Shown here piece by piece: positions 10,047 through 15,248 of a DNA stretch of 64,000 nucleotides. Below the pieces are notes generated by a model. It made no database searches, was not told where the DNA came from, and saw nothing but the letters and a program-made list of their open reading frames with translations. The DNA comes from Streptomyces sp. Je 1-332 (GTDB lineage Bacteria; Actinomycetota; Actinomycetes; Streptomycetales; Streptomycetaceae). Within the stretch, counting starts at the first letter, position 1, and each line of letters begins with the position of its first letter. A program made the position numbers and the translations under genes. The stretch is from positions 5,084,001 to 5,148,000 of the forward strand of contig NZ_CP160402.1 of assembly GCF_040730185.1 (NCBI RefSeq). The letters are read 5' to 3'.

Positions 10047-10592
10047 CTACCGCTCCACGCGGCGCAGGAACTGCCAGCCCAGGACGATCAAAGCGAGCGT
10101 CTGCACGAGAGAAGTGAGCGCGAGCAAGGGCTGAACGGTAGGAGAGCACCAGAACGCGGCCGTGCAGACCATCGGCAACACCAGGTACGCGAACAGGTCC
10201 ACCGCGGTCTGAAGCCGCTTGCGCATGGTGCGGCCTGCAACGTTGCGGTGGTAGACCTCCCAGCCGAACATCGTGCCGTGGGTGGAGGCGAGTTCCCCCA
10301 GGCGCGGTCCCAGTTGGTCGCGGACGTAGTAGCTGATTGCCGAGACCTTCTCGTCGTTGACCAGGTAGGTCCATCCCAGAATGAGGCAGATCACGGGGAC
10401 GGAGAGGAGTAGTCGGAACTGTCCGCTCTGGACGGTGATAGCCACGACCGCAGTGGCCGCGGCGAGCGTGAAATAGAGCAGGTTGTCGCGGAATCCTATG
10501 CGGGCCTTCTGTTCCTCCTTGAGGCGGTCGTATTCGGTCAGCAAGATTTTTCCCTCGGTGACATCATCCGTGGAATTCACAGGCATTCCCAT
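10047..10592 (-). CDS. Small polytopic membrane protein of the Nudix-nucleosidase operon
   Basis: A 181-aa protein. A charged helix (TEYDRLKEEQKARIGFRDN) leads into two close transmembrane segments (LLYFTLAAATAVVAITV and LLLSVPVICLILGWTYLV). A cytoplasmic region of about 60 residues follows, then two further hydrophobic segments near the C-terminus. The start is 14 bases after the stop of the upstream gene, so it is co-transcribed. The layout of a short amphipathic helix plus a helical hairpin recalls SLATT-type pore effectors of nucleotide-linked conflict systems. That is resemblance only; I do not recognise the family. An ATG two codons later is also possible. Confidence 0.72.
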   Translation of the reverse strand: MGMPVNSTDDVTEGKILLTEYDRLKEEQKARIGFRDNLLYFTLAAATAVVAITVQSGQFRLLLSVPVICLILGWTYLVNDEKVSAISYYVRDQLGPRLGELASTHGTMFGWEVYHRNVAGRTMRKRLQTAVDLFAYLVLPMVCTAAFWCSPTVQPLLALTSLVQTLALIVLGWQFLRRVER

Positions 10593-10606
10593 GCTCGAAT
10601 TCAGGA

Positions 10607-12586
10607 TCACCCGGCGAACTGAAATGGCGTCAGGTTGTCGGGGCTGTGTCGTTCGATCCAACCCTTCCCGTCTGCCGCGATCCCCTCCAGTAGGCGGAAG
10701 GTATGGGTGGATCCGGCCGCGCTGAGGTTGATCTCGGAGATTTCCCTGGAATTCTCGTCCGGCGCCAGTTGATGGGCATCGGCGTCCTTGACGCGTATCT
10801 TCCTGGCTGGCCCGTTGGTGAGGACGAGTTCCAGGTCGTAGCCTCCATCGACGTTCTCCGCGACCTGGACGGAGGACAGAGCGTCGAAGCGGTAGTTGCT
10901 CCGCTGTTCGTTCTTGCGCGTTGCGTCGGAGAAGCTGAACTCGGAGCTCATCTCGCGGATGCCGTCCTGGGTGAACAGGAACAAGCGGAACACGTAGTGC
11001 GAGTACCGCCAGGGGCCGCGCCTGACGCGCCCTCGTTTGTAGGAAGGGGCGGGGGAAACCAGGATGGTGTGGGTGATCAGATCGCGCCAGGTGAGCCGGT
11101 GGTGCCGGAGCGCCTCATCGACGAACGAAGTCTTGTCGCAGGCGAGCCAAGTCTCCATTTGCTGCTCGCTGGGACGCGTGGTGTCCAGGAGGGACTGCCA
11201 GCGCTGGTGCGCAGCCTGTCGTGCTGTCAGTTGCTCACGGTACTTCAGGGTCTCCCTGGCCAGCCGGTGCTCTTCACGCCGGACCTGCAGCCACAGCGAA
11301 GCGGTTGCGTGCCCGGACCAGGCAGCACCGAGCATGGCAAGGAAAGCCCATAGCGATCTAGGCGAGGGGGCACCCGAAACTGCCGTTTCGAACGCGGTCA
11401 GAGCCGTGACGCCGAGAACGGCTAGGGCCACCACGGTCACGGCCTTCGTCTTGACAGGAGTCCGGCTATGGCGGTGATCTTCGAATAGGGTGCCGTTGTT
11501 GTGGCGGTTCCTGGCGTCCTCAGCGAGGTACCGGATCAACCAGGTGACCCGGTCCACACCGACCCGGCTCTCCCGATAAAGGTCCGCGATCTCGGCGGCG
11601 AGGCTGTTGCGGACCTGAGCGGTGTGGGCGAGCCAGGCGTCCGGCGTGAACTCGTGTGGCGTGCGAACGCTGAAGTAGTGATCGAACGAATGGCGGACGC
11701 GTTTGGTGAACCCGTCCTCGTCTGAGGAAGGACTGTACGTGTGCGGGATGCGAGCCCCGGCAGTGAGGTGCAACCGGGGTTCCTGGCACCACCGGTCACC
11801 GAAGCGGGCGGCAGTCAGACCCGCGCTGAGCGCCACCAGTAACTCGACGGTCGCCTCGGCCGCATCCGAGATCAGTGCCAGGCACCAGAGGAGCACGCTG
11901 CTGATGATGAACAGGACTGTGCGGACAGGGAGGGCCGCCTCGGCGGCGGCAGCGGTGCTCGGGTGGGGCTGAACGGCGCGCGCCCCGATAGGGGCAGGCG
12001 CGAAGTAGGCCCAGACCCGCCGGCTCCGGTCGTTGCCGAACCGCCCCGCCCTGGCTCGTTCACAGGTCTCCGCCCACAGGTCGTCTTTCAGTCCTCCGGT
12101 GAGCATGAGGTCGAGGTGGCGGAGGATTGCGTTGTGCTGGCGGAGCGGCAGATCTTGCAGCTGCTTCAGCACTGGGCCGGTCTCGCCGTGGGCGGTGCTG
12201 AGCACCGTCAGCAGGCCGAAAGTGACGCGCAGAGCTTCTTTCCACTCGTCCTCGGCGAAGGTCTGTACGAGCCCGGAGCTGTAGTGGAGCCGTTGGACCT
12301 CTTCGGCACTGAGGTCGTCGTAGGTGCGTGCGCTGAGCACGGCGAGCGCCCAGTGGAAACGAACTTCCGCGCTGTCGTACCCGTGAGCGATCGCATCAGT
12401 GATCATTTCGCGGGCGCGGCTGGGGATGCCGTCCTCCAGTAGCCGCACGCCCACCCTGTACTTCTCCTGGGGTGAAGCGTCCGGGTGGACGAAGTAGACA
12501 CTGGAGTTGTGTACGGTCTCAGCCTGGATTCCGACGGTGGAGTCGTATGCGGCCGAGTTGTATGCGGCATCGCTGGTCTGGCTCAT
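10607..12586 (-). CDS. Large membrane protein carrying the shared STVGI motif
   Basis: A 659-aa protein. Residues 14-32 (YDSTVGIQAETVHNSSVYF) are a hydrophobic, alternating motif that closely matches one in the upstream nucleosidase. Residues 36-200 are helical and TPR-like (SPQEKYRVGVRLLEDGIPSR). Two pairs of transmembrane helices follow, near 222-265 and 397-450, with a soluble segment between them. The C-terminal 170 residues look beta-rich (YKRGRVRRGPWRYSHYVF, YDLELVLTNGPARKIRVK). The start overlaps the nucleosidase stop by four bases (ATGA). No catalytic motif was recognised. It may be a membrane effector or scaffold recruited through the motif. Confidence 0.78.
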   Translation of the reverse strand: MSQTSDAAYNSAAYDSTVGIQAETVHNSSVYFVHPDASPQEKYRVGVRLLEDGIPSRAREMITDAIAHGYDSAEVRFHWALAVLSARTYDDLSAEEVQRLHYSSGLVQTFAEDEWKEALRVTFGLLTVLSTAHGETGPVLKQLQDLPLRQHNAILRHLDLMLTGGLKDDLWAETCERARAGRFGNDRSRRVWAYFAPAPIGARAVQPHPSTAAAAEAALPVRTVLFIISSVLLWCLALISDAAEATVELLVALSAGLTAARFGDRWCQEPRLHLTAGARIPHTYSPSSDEDGFTKRVRHSFDHYFSVRTPHEFTPDAWLAHTAQVRNSLAAEIADLYRESRVGVDRVTWLIRYLAEDARNRHNNGTLFEDHRHSRTPVKTKAVTVVALAVLGVTALTAFETAVSGAPSPRSLWAFLAMLGAAWSGHATASLWLQVRREEHRLARETLKYREQLTARQAAHQRWQSLLDTTRPSEQQMETWLACDKTSFVDEALRHHRLTWRDLITHTILVSPAPSYKRGRVRRGPWRYSHYVFRLFLFTQDGIREMSSEFSFSDATRKNEQRSNYRFDALSSVQVAENVDGGYDLELVLTNGPARKIRVKDADAHQLAPDENSREISEINLSAAGSTHTFRLLEGIAADGKGWIERHSPDNLTPFQFAG

Positions 12587-12987
12587 GCTCGCTCACCGGC
12601 CGCCGCCACCATGGGGGCCAGCTCGGCCACCAGTGCGGGGCACTCCGCGACCAACCCACGCAGCCTCTTGAGCGTCATGGCAGTCCGCTTCGACGATTCG
12701 GGGGTGTTCCTCCCGGCTGTCCGGAGGGCGGAGTCCAGATCGTTCAGGGCCTCTCGGTAGGTGTCCTCGTCGAGGGCGCCCTCAGTACGGTGCCGCCCCA
12801 ACTGCTCGCGGAAGCCGTTCAGCTCCGCGATCAGGTCCGTCGTGCCGGATGCCTTCGGGGCCGAGTTCATGTGGACACTGCTGCCCATGACCGAGCCGGC
12901 CATGATACCGACGGTGCTGTTGTGTGCGGTGTTGCTGACGCGTCGGTCCAACCTGTCGGCCGAACGGACCCCGTCGTCCTGAGACAT
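12583..12987 (-). CDS. Possible internal translation product: motif plus helical domain alone
   Basis: An in-frame ATG at codon 254 of the nucleosidase gene is preceded by AGAAGGAGACCGCA, a ribosome site as good as any in the operon with six bases of spacing. Initiation here would give a 134-aa protein made only of the STVGI motif and the helical domain. It would begin MSQ, as the next protein in the operon also does. It could be a free adaptor. Whether it is made is untested. Confidence 0.4.
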   Translation of the reverse strand: MSQDDGVRSADRLDRRVSNTAHNSTVGIMAGSVMGSSVHMNSAPKASGTTDLIAELNGFREQLGRHRTEGALDEDTYREALNDLDSALRTAGRNTPESSKRTAMTLKRLRGLVAECPALVAELAPMVAAAGERA

Positions 12988-13746
12988 TGCGGTCTCCTTC
13001 TGTTCCCCCAACAACTCCACTGCTAAGCGGGTGGCGAACGCAGCTGCGTTCGCCACGGCCCGTGGCTGCCAGCTGCGGTCCGTAGCACTGTTTTTCGTGC
13101 CGTCCGCCCGGTCGCTGATCCCTCGGACGATGGCCACCGGAGCCCCGTTGAGATGGCCGGCTTGTGCCACACCTGCAGCCTCCATCTCGATGGCGAGTGC
13201 GTCGTTGTAGTGCTGTCGGATCCACTTCGCTTCGTCCGAGATCATCGAGTTCTGGACGACCTCTCCAGCGGCGATCGCCCCGAAGCACACCCGCGGCATG
13301 TCCTCGTAACCGGCCGTGGGGTCCGCCCAGTCGTTCAGGCGGGCCAGGTGTGCAGCGAGCTGGCTGATGCCGTGCGGTGCTTCCCACACCCGAGGGCGGG
13401 CTTTGAGTCCATCGTCCTCGCTGGTGCCGCCGTGGTAGGCGTACACGTGTGTCGCCATCACCACGTCGCCCAGCCTGGCGGTCTCCCACAGGGCTCCAGC
13501 GACCCCGACGAACAGCACGGCCACCGGCGAGAATTCCTGAATCGCGCGTTCGGCGATCACTGCTGCGGAACTGTTCCCCTTGCTCGTCAGGCCGAGTGCG
13601 ACACGGCACGATGTGCCCTGCACAGTTCCCACCTCGAACCGGGTACCACGCTTATGACGATGCACCTGCGTACCCGCGAGCTTCTGGCGCACAGCCTGGT
13701 ATTCAAGATTGAGGGCAGTGAGAACCACCACTTGGCCACTTGGCAT
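12583..13746 (-). CDS. PNP/MTAN-family nucleosidase fused to a motif-bearing helical domain
   Basis: A 387-aa protein. Residues 1-250 match the nucleoside phosphorylase/nucleosidase fold: a GxAG-like loop GVAGAL (81-86), the substrate-binding segment IEMEAAG (186-192) and RGISDRAD (208-215), whose Asp is the usual purine-contacting acid of MTA/SAH nucleosidases. Residues 275-293 (HNSTVGIMAGSVMGSSVHM) repeat a motif found in the next protein. Residues 302-387 are a small helical bundle. In bacteria such domains often serve as nucleotide-depleting effectors or as ligand generators. The ATG abuts the Nudix stop with no gap, and AAGGAGG lies within the end of that gene. An internal ATG at 12987 has its own strong ribosome site. 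Confidence 0.85.
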   Translation of the reverse strand: MPSGQVVVLTALNLEYQAVRQKLAGTQVHRHKRGTRFEVGTVQGTSCRVALGLTSKGNSSAAVIAERAIQEFSPVAVLFVGVAGALWETARLGDVVMATHVYAYHGGTSEDDGLKARPRVWEAPHGISQLAAHLARLNDWADPTAGYEDMPRVCFGAIAAGEVVQNSMISDEAKWIRQHYNDALAIEMEAAGVAQAGHLNGAPVAIVRGISDRADGTKNSATDRSWQPRAVANAAAFATRLAVELLGEQKETAMSQDDGVRSADRLDRRVSNTAHNSTVGIMAGSVMGSSVHMNSAPKASGTTDLIAELNGFREQLGRHRTEGALDEDTYREALNDLDSALRTAGRNTPESSKRTAMTLKRLRGLVAECPALVAELAPMVAAAGERA

Positions 13747-14490
13747 CTATGCCTCCTTCTCTTTCGTGATCTCTTCCATCACGGATGGCGCGGGTCGGAT
13801 CAGCGGGGGGAACAGCATCGTCTTCGGGCCGGTCCGGTACAGCCGTGCCGGCCGTCCTCCTGTGGTCCTGCGATTCGTGCCTACTGGGACGATGAACCCC
13901 TTTACGGCTTGGACCTTTCGGTAGAAATTGCGAGTGTCGAGTTCGGTGCCCCAGACGGCTTCGTACACTTGTTGTAGCTCTGTGATGGTGAAGTTTTCTC
14001 TGCAGAATGCTGTGGCCAGAGAAGAGAACTCGAGCTTGGTGCGCGCGCGTTCGATCCCGTCGCTAACGATTCGGCGGTGATCAAAGGCGAGCTTCACTTC
14101 ACCGGACAGGACGGCTTCTGCGGGAACCCACGCGGCATCGGTGGCATCCGTTCCCGCGACCGGCTCCGGCAGCCTCGGTGCGATCGCCAGGTGGGCTACG
14201 GATACGACTCGGCCCCGAGGATCACGGCCCGAGTCCCCGTACACGGCCAGCTGTTCAAGGTGGACCGAACCGGCGGGTAGGGCGGTTTCCTCGCTCAGTT
14301 CGCGGTGGGCGGCATCCAAAATCTCCTCATCGCCGTGGCTCAGAAATCCTCCGGGCAGCGCCGAGATGCCACGGAAGGGATCTTCACCCCTCTCCACCAG
14401 GAGCACGTGGAGGCGGCTCTCCCTCAGCGTCAGGATCACGAGGTCGACCGTCAGCAGTACAGGAGGAGGTGACCACACGTCATGTTGCAT
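13747..14490 (-). CDS. NrtR-like Nudix/winged-helix transcriptional regulator
   Basis: A 247-aa protein. Residues about 10-150 form a Nudix domain (ALPGGFLSHGDEEILDAAHR, then ELSEETAL). The Nudix box is altered: one extra residue between the first glycine and REL, and Ala in place of the final Gly, so hydrolysis may be lost. Residues about 155-225 form a winged helix (FTITELQQVYEAVWG, DTRNFYRK). NrtR proteins use the Nudix fold to sense ADP-ribose or related nucleotides and repress their operon. The ATG at 14490 lacks a ribosome site, which fits a leaderless transcript; a TTG three codons earlier is an alternative. It is first in the operon and lies under a palindrome. Confidence 0.85.
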   Translation of the reverse strand: MQHDVWSPPPVLLTVDLVILTLRESRLHVLLVERGEDPFRGISALPGGFLSHGDEEILDAAHRELSEETALPAGSVHLEQLAVYGDSGRDPRGRVVSVAHLAIAPRLPEPVAGTDATDAAWVPAEAVLSGEVKLAFDHRRIVSDGIERARTKLEFSSLATAFCRENFTITELQQVYEAVWGTELDTRNFYRKVQAVKGFIVPVGTNRRTTGGRPARLYRTGPKTMLFPPLIRPAPSVMEEITKEKEA

Positions 14491-14493
14491 GTC

Positions 14494-14527
14494 GTGCAAG
14501 GTACTTCAGTTACTGTCACTTGCACAA
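14494..14527 (-). promoter_or_regulatory. Promoter and 32-bp palindromic operator of the Nudix operon
   Basis: GTGCAAGGTAC (14494-14504) and GTCACTTGCAC (14515-14525) are inverted repeats matching at 9 of 11 positions around a 10-bp spacer. On the minus strand TTGTGC (14527-14522) and TACCTT (14503-14498) are 18 bp apart. That would place the transcript start close to the ATG at 14490. The palindrome covers both promoter elements, as expected for autorepression by the NrtR-like product. Confidence 0.62.
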
Positions 14528-14681
14528 TAAGGAAGTCGCCGTGCCAGGGTCGGCCATGGTGGCGAAGGGCGAGCGGGGCGTGTGTGGAGGGTTCCAACCC
14601 GGTCGGCCCCGCCGACGGCAAGGCTGCAGACCAGTCCGGCGATGGGTGTCGTCGGTGGGGCTGTCGCGCAGATGCAGACCG

Positions 14682-15248
14682 TCAGATGGAACCCAGGTCG
14701 ACATTGACGGAGAAGGGTGCAGCAGTCTTGATCGCGGCGGTGAACATCTCGCCGTCCCTGTAGCTCTTGGTCGCAGGGTCGAGGACGTAGGTGTAGACGA
14801 TGGGAACGCCGGTGGCGGCCTGCTCGACCCGCCAGTAGAAGGGGATGCCGGCCTTGGCGTACTGGTCGACCTTTACGACCCGGTCCGTGGTTTCCGAACC
14901 GGGCGACACGATCTCGACGACCAGAAGCACGTGCTCGGGGCGGGTGGGCGTGAGGTCGATGGTTTCCGCCCGGTAGACGATGACGTCCGGACGGCGGTTG
15001 GTGAGTGGAACGTCCTGCAGGCGGACGTCGAAGTCCGTGTCTGCGTTCCAGTCGGGGCCCGCGGCTGCGTCCAGGGCATTGGCCAGGATGCGGGCCAGCC
15101 GGTTGTGGCGCTTCGAGGCGCTCGGGCTCACGACGACCATCCCGTCCACGATTTCGATGCCGGTGCACTGCTCCTCGGACCAGGAGTCGTACTGTTCCGC
15201 GCTGATCTGCGTATGCATCCAGGCGGGCGCCACCATCTCGGCGGTCAT
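14682..15248 (-). CDS. Uma2-family (DUF820) putative endonuclease
   Basis: A 188-aa protein with the PD-(D/E)xK nuclease core of the Uma2 family: RRPDVIVY supplies the Asp, VVEIVSPGS the Glu, and [17 protein letters not shown] the Lys and conserved tail. The N-terminus ([28 protein letters not shown]) is also typical. Uma2 genes are abundant in streptomycetes and cyanobacteria. Nuclease activity is inferred from the fold, and a biological role is not settled. AAGGAGG sits eight bases before the ATG. It lies upstream of the Nudix operon on the same strand, about 190 bp away, but that operon has its own promoter. Confidence 0.85.

Follow-up and report, generated by a model that had tools for sequence, protein, structure and literature searches.

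What might a nucleosidase and two membrane proteins do under the control of a Nudix-type regulator? The question is raised by a four-gene operon at positions 10047-14490 of a 64,000-nucleotide stretch of Streptomyces sp. Je 1-332 (contig NZ_CP160402.1, positions 5,084,001 to 5,148,000), hereafter the window. The original prediction, made from the letters of the DNA, regarded these genes as a candidate conflict system combining nucleotide sensing, nucleotide or nucleoside breakdown, and a membrane effector. With moderate confidence, our comparisons favour reading the operon as an NLR-free amyloid-motif signalling system, in which a nucleosidase would be the effector and would stand under nucleotide-sensing control. 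The four genes are:

14490-13747, minus strand: P0001, an NrtR-like regulator with a degenerate Nudix domain and an NrtR winged helix.
13746-12583, minus strand: P0002, a PNP/MTAN-fold nucleosidase (residues ~6-241) followed by a variable linker, a motif and a C-terminal helical adaptor domain.
12586-10607, minus strand: P0003, a membrane protein.
10592-10047, minus strand: P0004, a four-helix membrane protein and optional partner.

The coordinates agree with the co-directional, closely coupled arrangement originally described, with a joint of 0 base pairs (bp) between P0001 and P0002, a 4-bp overlap between P0002 and P0003, and 14 bp between P0003 and P0004. Also as predicted, the guanine-plus-cytosine (GC) content is lower than that of flanking genes: positions 10047-14490 have a GC content of 0.643 versus 0.693 for the whole window, none of 298 sliding windows of equal length (step 200) is as GC-poor, and GC at third codon positions ranges from 0.71 to 0.82 across P0001-P0004 versus 0.92-0.94 in the two neighbours measured.

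Searching 199 Streptomyces genomes (the present one included) with P0003 gave matches in 24, comprising 18 near full length, again counting our own, and six distant relatives. All four genes occur in the same order and on the same strand in 17 of the 18 near-full-length loci; in the eighteenth (G167) the contigs break off within the operon, one containing P0002, P0003 and part of P0004, and a different one part of P0001. The 4-bp P0002-P0003 overlap is kept in all 18. A class-wide search of 296 genomes, using a distant P0003 relative as query, returned matches in 18, from which 14 loci were fetched; not taken were our own genome and G133, both of the same genus, and the partial and very weak matches of G318 and G346. 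These 14 loci span seven genera in two other families, and all of them show the order NrtR-like gene, PNP gene, P0003 relative. The genes therefore do recur together elsewhere, and the conserved core consists of regulator, nucleosidase and membrane protein, with P0004 as an add-on; the four-gene unit of the original prediction holds within the genus but gives way in other genera to a unit of three. Each of the other 16 complete loci was searched, over a fetched span of 19.5 kb, for three genes that flank the operon in the window (DUF255/thioredoxin-like, PIG-L and Mut7-C). At least one of the DUF255/thioredoxin-like and PIG-L genes lies near the operon in six of the 16, and no flanking gene was found in the other ten, so the operon occupies more than one chromosomal place.

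P0002 matches PNP_UDP_1 in Pfam (1.8e-32) and the PADLOC model for PN-superfamily effectors (3.5e-22), and scores below both MTAN equivalog cut-offs (57.0 versus 73.8 bits and 102.9 versus 169 bits). A phylogenetic tree of 53 PNP rows included 39 of effector type. Five of these belong to the present operon, 14 come from other genera and 15 from other modules, and the last five are fused to longer proteins, two of which are NB-ARC-like by BLAST. The 39 are split from MTANs by a 100/100 branch, whose length of 3.09 calls for a long-branch warning and whose root is arbitrary. Residues aligned to the catalytic Glu12, Glu174, Arg193, Ser196 and Asp197 of Escherichia coli MTAN are kept in all 39 effector-type rows. 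Columns aligned to Ile50, Val102, Phe105, Pro113 and Phe207, of the hydrophobic 5'-alkylthio (methylthio) pocket of MTAN, are changed in all five operon rows (to Lys, Thr, Asp, a gap and Asp, respectively); some MTAN-family rows vary at these columns too, yet remain mostly hydrophobic. Taken together, the tree, the altered pocket and the missed equivalog cut-offs rule out an ordinary methylthioadenosine/S-adenosylhomocysteine (MTA/SAH) salvage enzyme, an identity that the original prediction had singled out for a phylogenetic check. From its sequence we infer that P0002 would act on a nucleotide whose 5' group is charged. Nucleosidases of the P0002 group occur beside or fused to NB-ARC-like proteins, and because of this linkage a conflict-type logic fits the operon. 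To this extent the conflict-system reading is supported, with the amendment that P0002, and not a membrane protein, looks like the effector, and that P0004 is an optional part of the arrangement.

Between the enzymatic and adaptor domains of P0002, and near the N-terminus of P0003, lie two short conserved segments:

12862-12936, minus strand: amyloid-like (RHIM/BASS3-like) motif of P0002, residues 271-295 (SNTAHNSTVGIMAGSVMGSSVHMNS), a conserved island resembling the P0003 motif.
12482-12544, minus strand: amyloid-like motif of P0003, residues 15-35 (DSTVGIQAETVHNSSVYFVHP).

The P0002 island has a mean top-residue fraction of 0.82, versus 0.67 and 0.66 in its flanks, and that of P0003 one of 0.81, up from 0.60 before it. 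In 15 locus pairs the observed likeness of the two motifs was reached by 0-7 of 500 shuffles, and in a further 14 pairs by 0-10 of 500. The motif sharing between adjacent genes that had been reported from the window thus stands above chance across 29 locus pairs. In other genera a relaxed core is present in 11 of 14 PNPs (GVQAG or GIQAG in seven) and in nine of 14 P0003s.

The predicted layout of P0003 is, in order, the N-terminal motif, TPR-like repeats (~30-168), a transmembrane hairpin (~213-266), a helical region, a second transmembrane hairpin (~378-435) and a C-terminal PH-like beta domain (~503-600). Neither P0003 nor P0004 has a Pfam family over cut-off or a solved-structure match at E<=0.001 in Foldseek; for P0003, no NTPase family was detected by Pfam at E<=1, and a second look with VIA-align was middling. 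The effector role first proposed for the membrane protein is not borne out, and P0003 looks instead like a receptor or nucleator.

P0001 matches both NUDIX (PF00293; 3.7e-16) and NrtR_WHD (PF21906; 1.1e-17) over the Pfam cut-off, and its top match in the PDB is 3gz5 (1.2e-31), labelled there 'MutT/nudix family protein'. It scores 126.8 bits, with a cut-off of 400, against the NCBIfam equivalog NF050029 for an ADP-ribose (ADPR)-responsive repressor, and would thus be a relative of that regulator, not necessarily its equivalent. Relatives of P0001 (E<=1e-50) occur in 195 of the 199 genus genomes, operon copies counted, and 13 sampled core paralogs, outside the operon, are 55-57% identical to it by BLAST. 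A canonical Nudix box is present in all 13 core paralogs aligned. The operon copies possess a box with a one-residue insertion (17 in the genus and 11 of 14 in other genera), and the final Gly of the box is lost in all 17 genus copies (Gly to Ala in P0001) and in seven of the 11 inserted copies from other genera. Upstream of P0001 we identified:

14510-14530, minus strand: putative palindromic operator TTATTGTGCAAGTGACAGTAA, overlapping the promoter.
14498-14527, minus strand: candidate promoter, aligned in 17 loci and read by eye, with -35 TTGTGC (14527-14522) and -10 TACCTT (14503-14498).

Since the -10 stands 7 nucleotides from the ATG, the P0001 transcript is perhaps leaderless. The palindrome, lying over this promoter-like sequence from ~40 bp before the ATG, could be aligned in all 17 genus upstream regions, 15 of which fit the strict pattern. 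The operator pattern TTNTTGTNNNNNTGACA occurs once in the 8.27-Mb genome of Je 1-332. A stricter pattern occurs once each in six of 121 genomes, always directly before the operon's regulator and nowhere else; 12 of the 121 bear the operon, and six of these were missed, our own copy by one base. A palindrome related to it, TCGTC-N5-GACGA, accompanies the core NrtR paralogs in 13 of 13 loci (by eye). Among the 14 loci from other genera the operator pattern is found once each in 13, with no match in L221. It precedes the regulator in ten, and in L215, L216 and L219 it lies within the regulator-PNP gap (415-899 bp), a placement which ties it to the enzyme-P0003 genes. On sequence evidence, P0001 is a regulator dedicated to this operon. 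The regulator-PNP gap of L215 also contains, between the operator and the PNP gene, a further Nudix gene (L215:3939-4355, plus strand), whose short product has a canonical box.

Further insight into the relation between enzyme and regulator came from the distant P0003 relatives, which comprise 12 distinct loci (six in the genus and ten from a named-genome scan, with four shared between the sets). In eight of these, all in the genus, a Crp-family gene is followed by one for a cyclase-like enzyme, which bears a motif in its linker and a C-terminal domain, and then by the P0003 relative (L046, L048-L051, L165, L167 and L169; e.g. L046:8449-12748). These operons represent a sister system of that in the window. 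Crp family membership was checked by Pfam for two copies; the cyclase identity is a residue pattern read by eye together with a weak PDB profile match (E 0.049), the one cyclase-like copy scanned having no Pfam cyclase match. By profile alignment, the C-terminal domains of P0002 and of the cyclase-like proteins are homologous (hhalign Probab 96.8, with at most 1.7 for 20 shuffled-column control alignments; 99.1 for the other-genera set). In L047, L162 and L163 a small motif-plus-domain protein lacking an enzyme precedes the P0003 relative, and L161, where no adaptor gene was detected in that position, was counted as 'no enzyme'. None of these four loci has an NrtR or Crp regulator by tblastn, with the limit that L162 extends just ~3 kb before P0003, so that a regulator may be cut off. 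The regulator thus tracks the enzyme: PNP with NrtR in 31 loci, cyclase-like with Crp in eight, and neither with neither in four. None of the 31 PNP loci yielded a Crp relative, and none of the eight cyclase-like loci a P0001 relative. We tentatively raise the possibility, which we regard as somewhat doubtful, of a wider family of closed-loop signalosomes: an amyloid motif would let a membrane receptor template an enzyme, whose own product the operon regulator would sense (NrtR with the nucleosidase, Crp with the cyclase, and none without an enzyme). Through such a regulator, a single activation event would pass into induction that sustains itself.

For the operon in the window, the amyloid-motif reading suggests the following sequence of events. 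P0003 would act in the membrane as a receptor or nucleator which, once triggered, would use its N-terminal motif to template the matching motif in the P0002 linker. Clustering would then turn on the nucleosidase, which may strip the base off a nucleotide carrying a charged 5' group, candidates being ATP and NAD+, and base removal may result in cell arrest, death or a signal. P0001 would repress the operon via the dedicated operator over the promoter until its degenerate Nudix pocket binds an ADP-ribose-type nucleotide product, and its release would provide positive feedback. P0004 may be an accessory membrane partner of the nucleosidase group to which P0002 belongs. Release of P0001 from DNA by ADP-ribose is suggested by analogy with Mycobacterium smegmatis MsNrtR, reported in PMC6800001 as an auto-repressor with no Nudix activity that recognizes a palindromic site and is freed from DNA by ADP-ribose. 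Both proteins combine a Nudix domain with a winged helix and are associated with a palindromic site; MsNrtR controls NAD synthesis genes, whereas P0001 is a paralog dedicated to this operon, has an operator of its own and differs in the lesion of its Nudix box.

A number of observations weigh against this reading. P0003 possesses no recognised ligand-binding domain and no NTPase. A G-phi-Q-phi-G core is reported for RHIM and PP motifs in PMC7885112, where BASS3 is termed RHIM-related; the cores in the window, GIMAG in P0002 and GIQAE in P0003, miss its strict form, with Met in place of the RHIM-type Gln in the nucleosidase motif (GIMA in 18 of 18 genus loci) and Glu at the end of the P0003 core. 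Relatives from other genera, whose core is GVQAG or similar, come closer to it. The fourth core residue is Ala, where RHIM has Ile or Val. Motif scores average 59.0 within the same locus versus 45.8 with other loci, but the own partner ranks first in just two of 14 comparisons, which lends no support to specificity at the level of the locus and indicates that matching goes by subfamily. Three Actinoplanes loci, as well as L047, have a P0003 relative without a detected enzyme. Finally, the cyclase-type rows form one clade in the P0003 tree (seven rows, 99/98), so the match between regulator and enzyme amounts to about one independent switch, not 39.

The alternative that survives best, which we consider unlikely though well within reach, is a second-messenger switch without killing, in which the base freed by P0002 would yield a signal read by P0001, and perhaps P0004, controlling development or stress responses in hyphae. 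PNP domains of conflict systems have been proposed to make messengers (Kaur 2020, PMC7159879, as far as its available text goes), and the pairing of P0003 relatives with cyclase-like enzymes and Crp regulators represents signalling parts. The company of the nucleosidases points the other way, given that the closest relatives of P0002 accompany NB-ARC-like proteins and that PNP effectors elsewhere are tabulated as (d)ATP-degrading in PMC10952713.

P0004 leads to a second alternative. Its structure model has a mean predicted local distance difference test (pLDDT) score of 85.8, and a Foldseek search for a known fold yielded nothing significant. Among 38 fetched genus loci with P0004 relatives outside the operon, a PNP gene lies within 2.5 kb in 26 and further off in two, and is lacking in ten, while a P0004 relative is near just one of the 14 operon loci from other genera; P0004 therefore tends to accompany the nucleosidase group, not P0003. 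Because the PNPs adjoining it in these 26 loci are of several adaptor classes, P0004 appears to go with the enzyme and not with the sensor. Such adjacency would suit a toxin-immunity arrangement, in which P0002 is a toxin, P0004 (or P0003) a membrane-bound restrainer, and the motif mediates inhibition rather than activation. This we judge improbable, as P0004, with a relative near just one of the 14 other-genera loci, cannot be a general antidote, and P0003 relatives are also found with the small enzyme-less adaptor of L047, L162 and L163. Least probable of the three is a metabolic operon of a nucleoside/NAD salvage enzyme and a membrane protein under an ordinary NrtR, which would accord with the PNP fold, the intact hydrolase residues and the NAD synthesis genes governed by NrtR in mycobacteria (PMC6800001), and is opposed by the position of P0002 below both equivalog cut-offs and off the MTAN side of the tree, the patchy distribution (18 of 199 genomes), the shared motifs, the low GC, and an operator that differs from the one of the core NrtR paralog.

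Nucleosidases of other modules showed additional motif types. One C-terminal motif of other nucleosidases in the group is found again, in four of 15 loci scanned, within the N-terminal part of NB-ARC-like proteins close by; this type, 'GDHIDFRGGTFYGPVIGK', is common to PNP C-termini and the N-terminal parts of NB-ARC-TPR-like proteins (L128:2206-4833, L133:2891-5122, L138:3625-5721 and L148:12421-14667). The NB-ARC labels in these modules reflect BLAST matches to P0005, the NB-ARC-TPR protein downstream of the operon, the one copy scanned (L128) being under the NB-ARC cut-off (18.1 versus 23.5 bits). PNP proteins beside P0004 relatives in L120, L135 and L157 bear a C-terminal motif 'GVVxAVQNGSxTIN', and those of L121, L123, L139, L143, L144 and L152 a helical-looking C-terminal domain (LTIRDLGxLADTLLAV... 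or similar), which may be an effector-associated domain. Also identified, 2.2 kb from a P0004 relative, was a 214-residue protein (L146:3543-4187, plus strand) ending in 'VIQARDIHGGINLG', which we take to be a BASS3-like motif.

Of the published systems that we have seen, those closest to the operon are amyloid pairs built on an NLR, PNP effectors of fungi that bear amyloid motifs, PNP effectors that cut ATP, and NrtR itself; no description of this operon's combination of parts was found in searches of an open-licence library, in which most subscription journals are missing. As in BASS pairs (PMC7889193, PMC8086366, PMC7885112), a short motif is shared by two adjacent genes, N-terminal in one and C-terminal of the effector domain in the other. 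The pairs described there combine an NLR with an effector of the Bell type (less often CHAT or TIR), whereas in the present operon a multi-pass membrane protein, in which no NTPase is recognised, stands on the receptor side, and a cognate regulator is included. Fungal PNP_UDP effectors (PUASM and others; PMC9815663) likewise carry, after their PNP_UDP domain, an amyloid-like motif at the C-terminus that they have in common with a partner; their partners are NLRs (NACHT), the motif families differ, and a regulator gene is not mentioned in the text available for that paper. The PNP effectors of CBASS, Detocs and NLR-like systems (PMC10952713) also place a PNP-fold enzyme in a defence setting, listed there as (d)ATP-degrading; unlike those described, P0002 has PNP_UDP_1 as its only Pfam domain, with no TIR/PNP-associating SLOG domain found, and P0001, P0003 and P0004 match no PADLOC model. 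NTP-dependent conflict systems with effector-associated domains (PMC7159879, PMC8195603) share PNP and cyclase parts, with Crp-like regulators beside some, but in the available descriptions differ from the four proteins here, in which Pfam finds no MoxR, vWA or STAND NTPase domain.

Two neighbours adjoin the operon in the window. Directly upstream is a gene for a Uma2-family putative endonuclease (14682-15248, minus strand), relatives of which lie ~10 kb or less from the operon in L031, L032, L033 and L215. Directly downstream is P0005 (6644-9838, minus strand), which was considered as a fifth operon part and rejected, a relative of at least 40% identity (the weakest match counted) being near the operon in just five of the 16 other complete loci (L030-L032, L034 and L036); as all five fall among the six loci sharing the chromosomal site, we treat P0005 as a neighbour. 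Of three neighbours of other-genera loci, picked by eye and without a control, PADLOC defence models match two (Orf5 and others by L223, and a type IIG restriction enzyme by L217), while the third has no PADLOC match.

If the amyloid-motif reading is true, amyloid-type immune signalling in bacteria would need no NLR, and a membrane protein could serve as its receptor. Effectors that destroy nucleotides would also be coupled to a transcription factor able to read the damage they do. The two enzyme/regulator pairs found on one receptor scaffold would predict which molecule each regulator binds, and the operator may be usable as a reporter.

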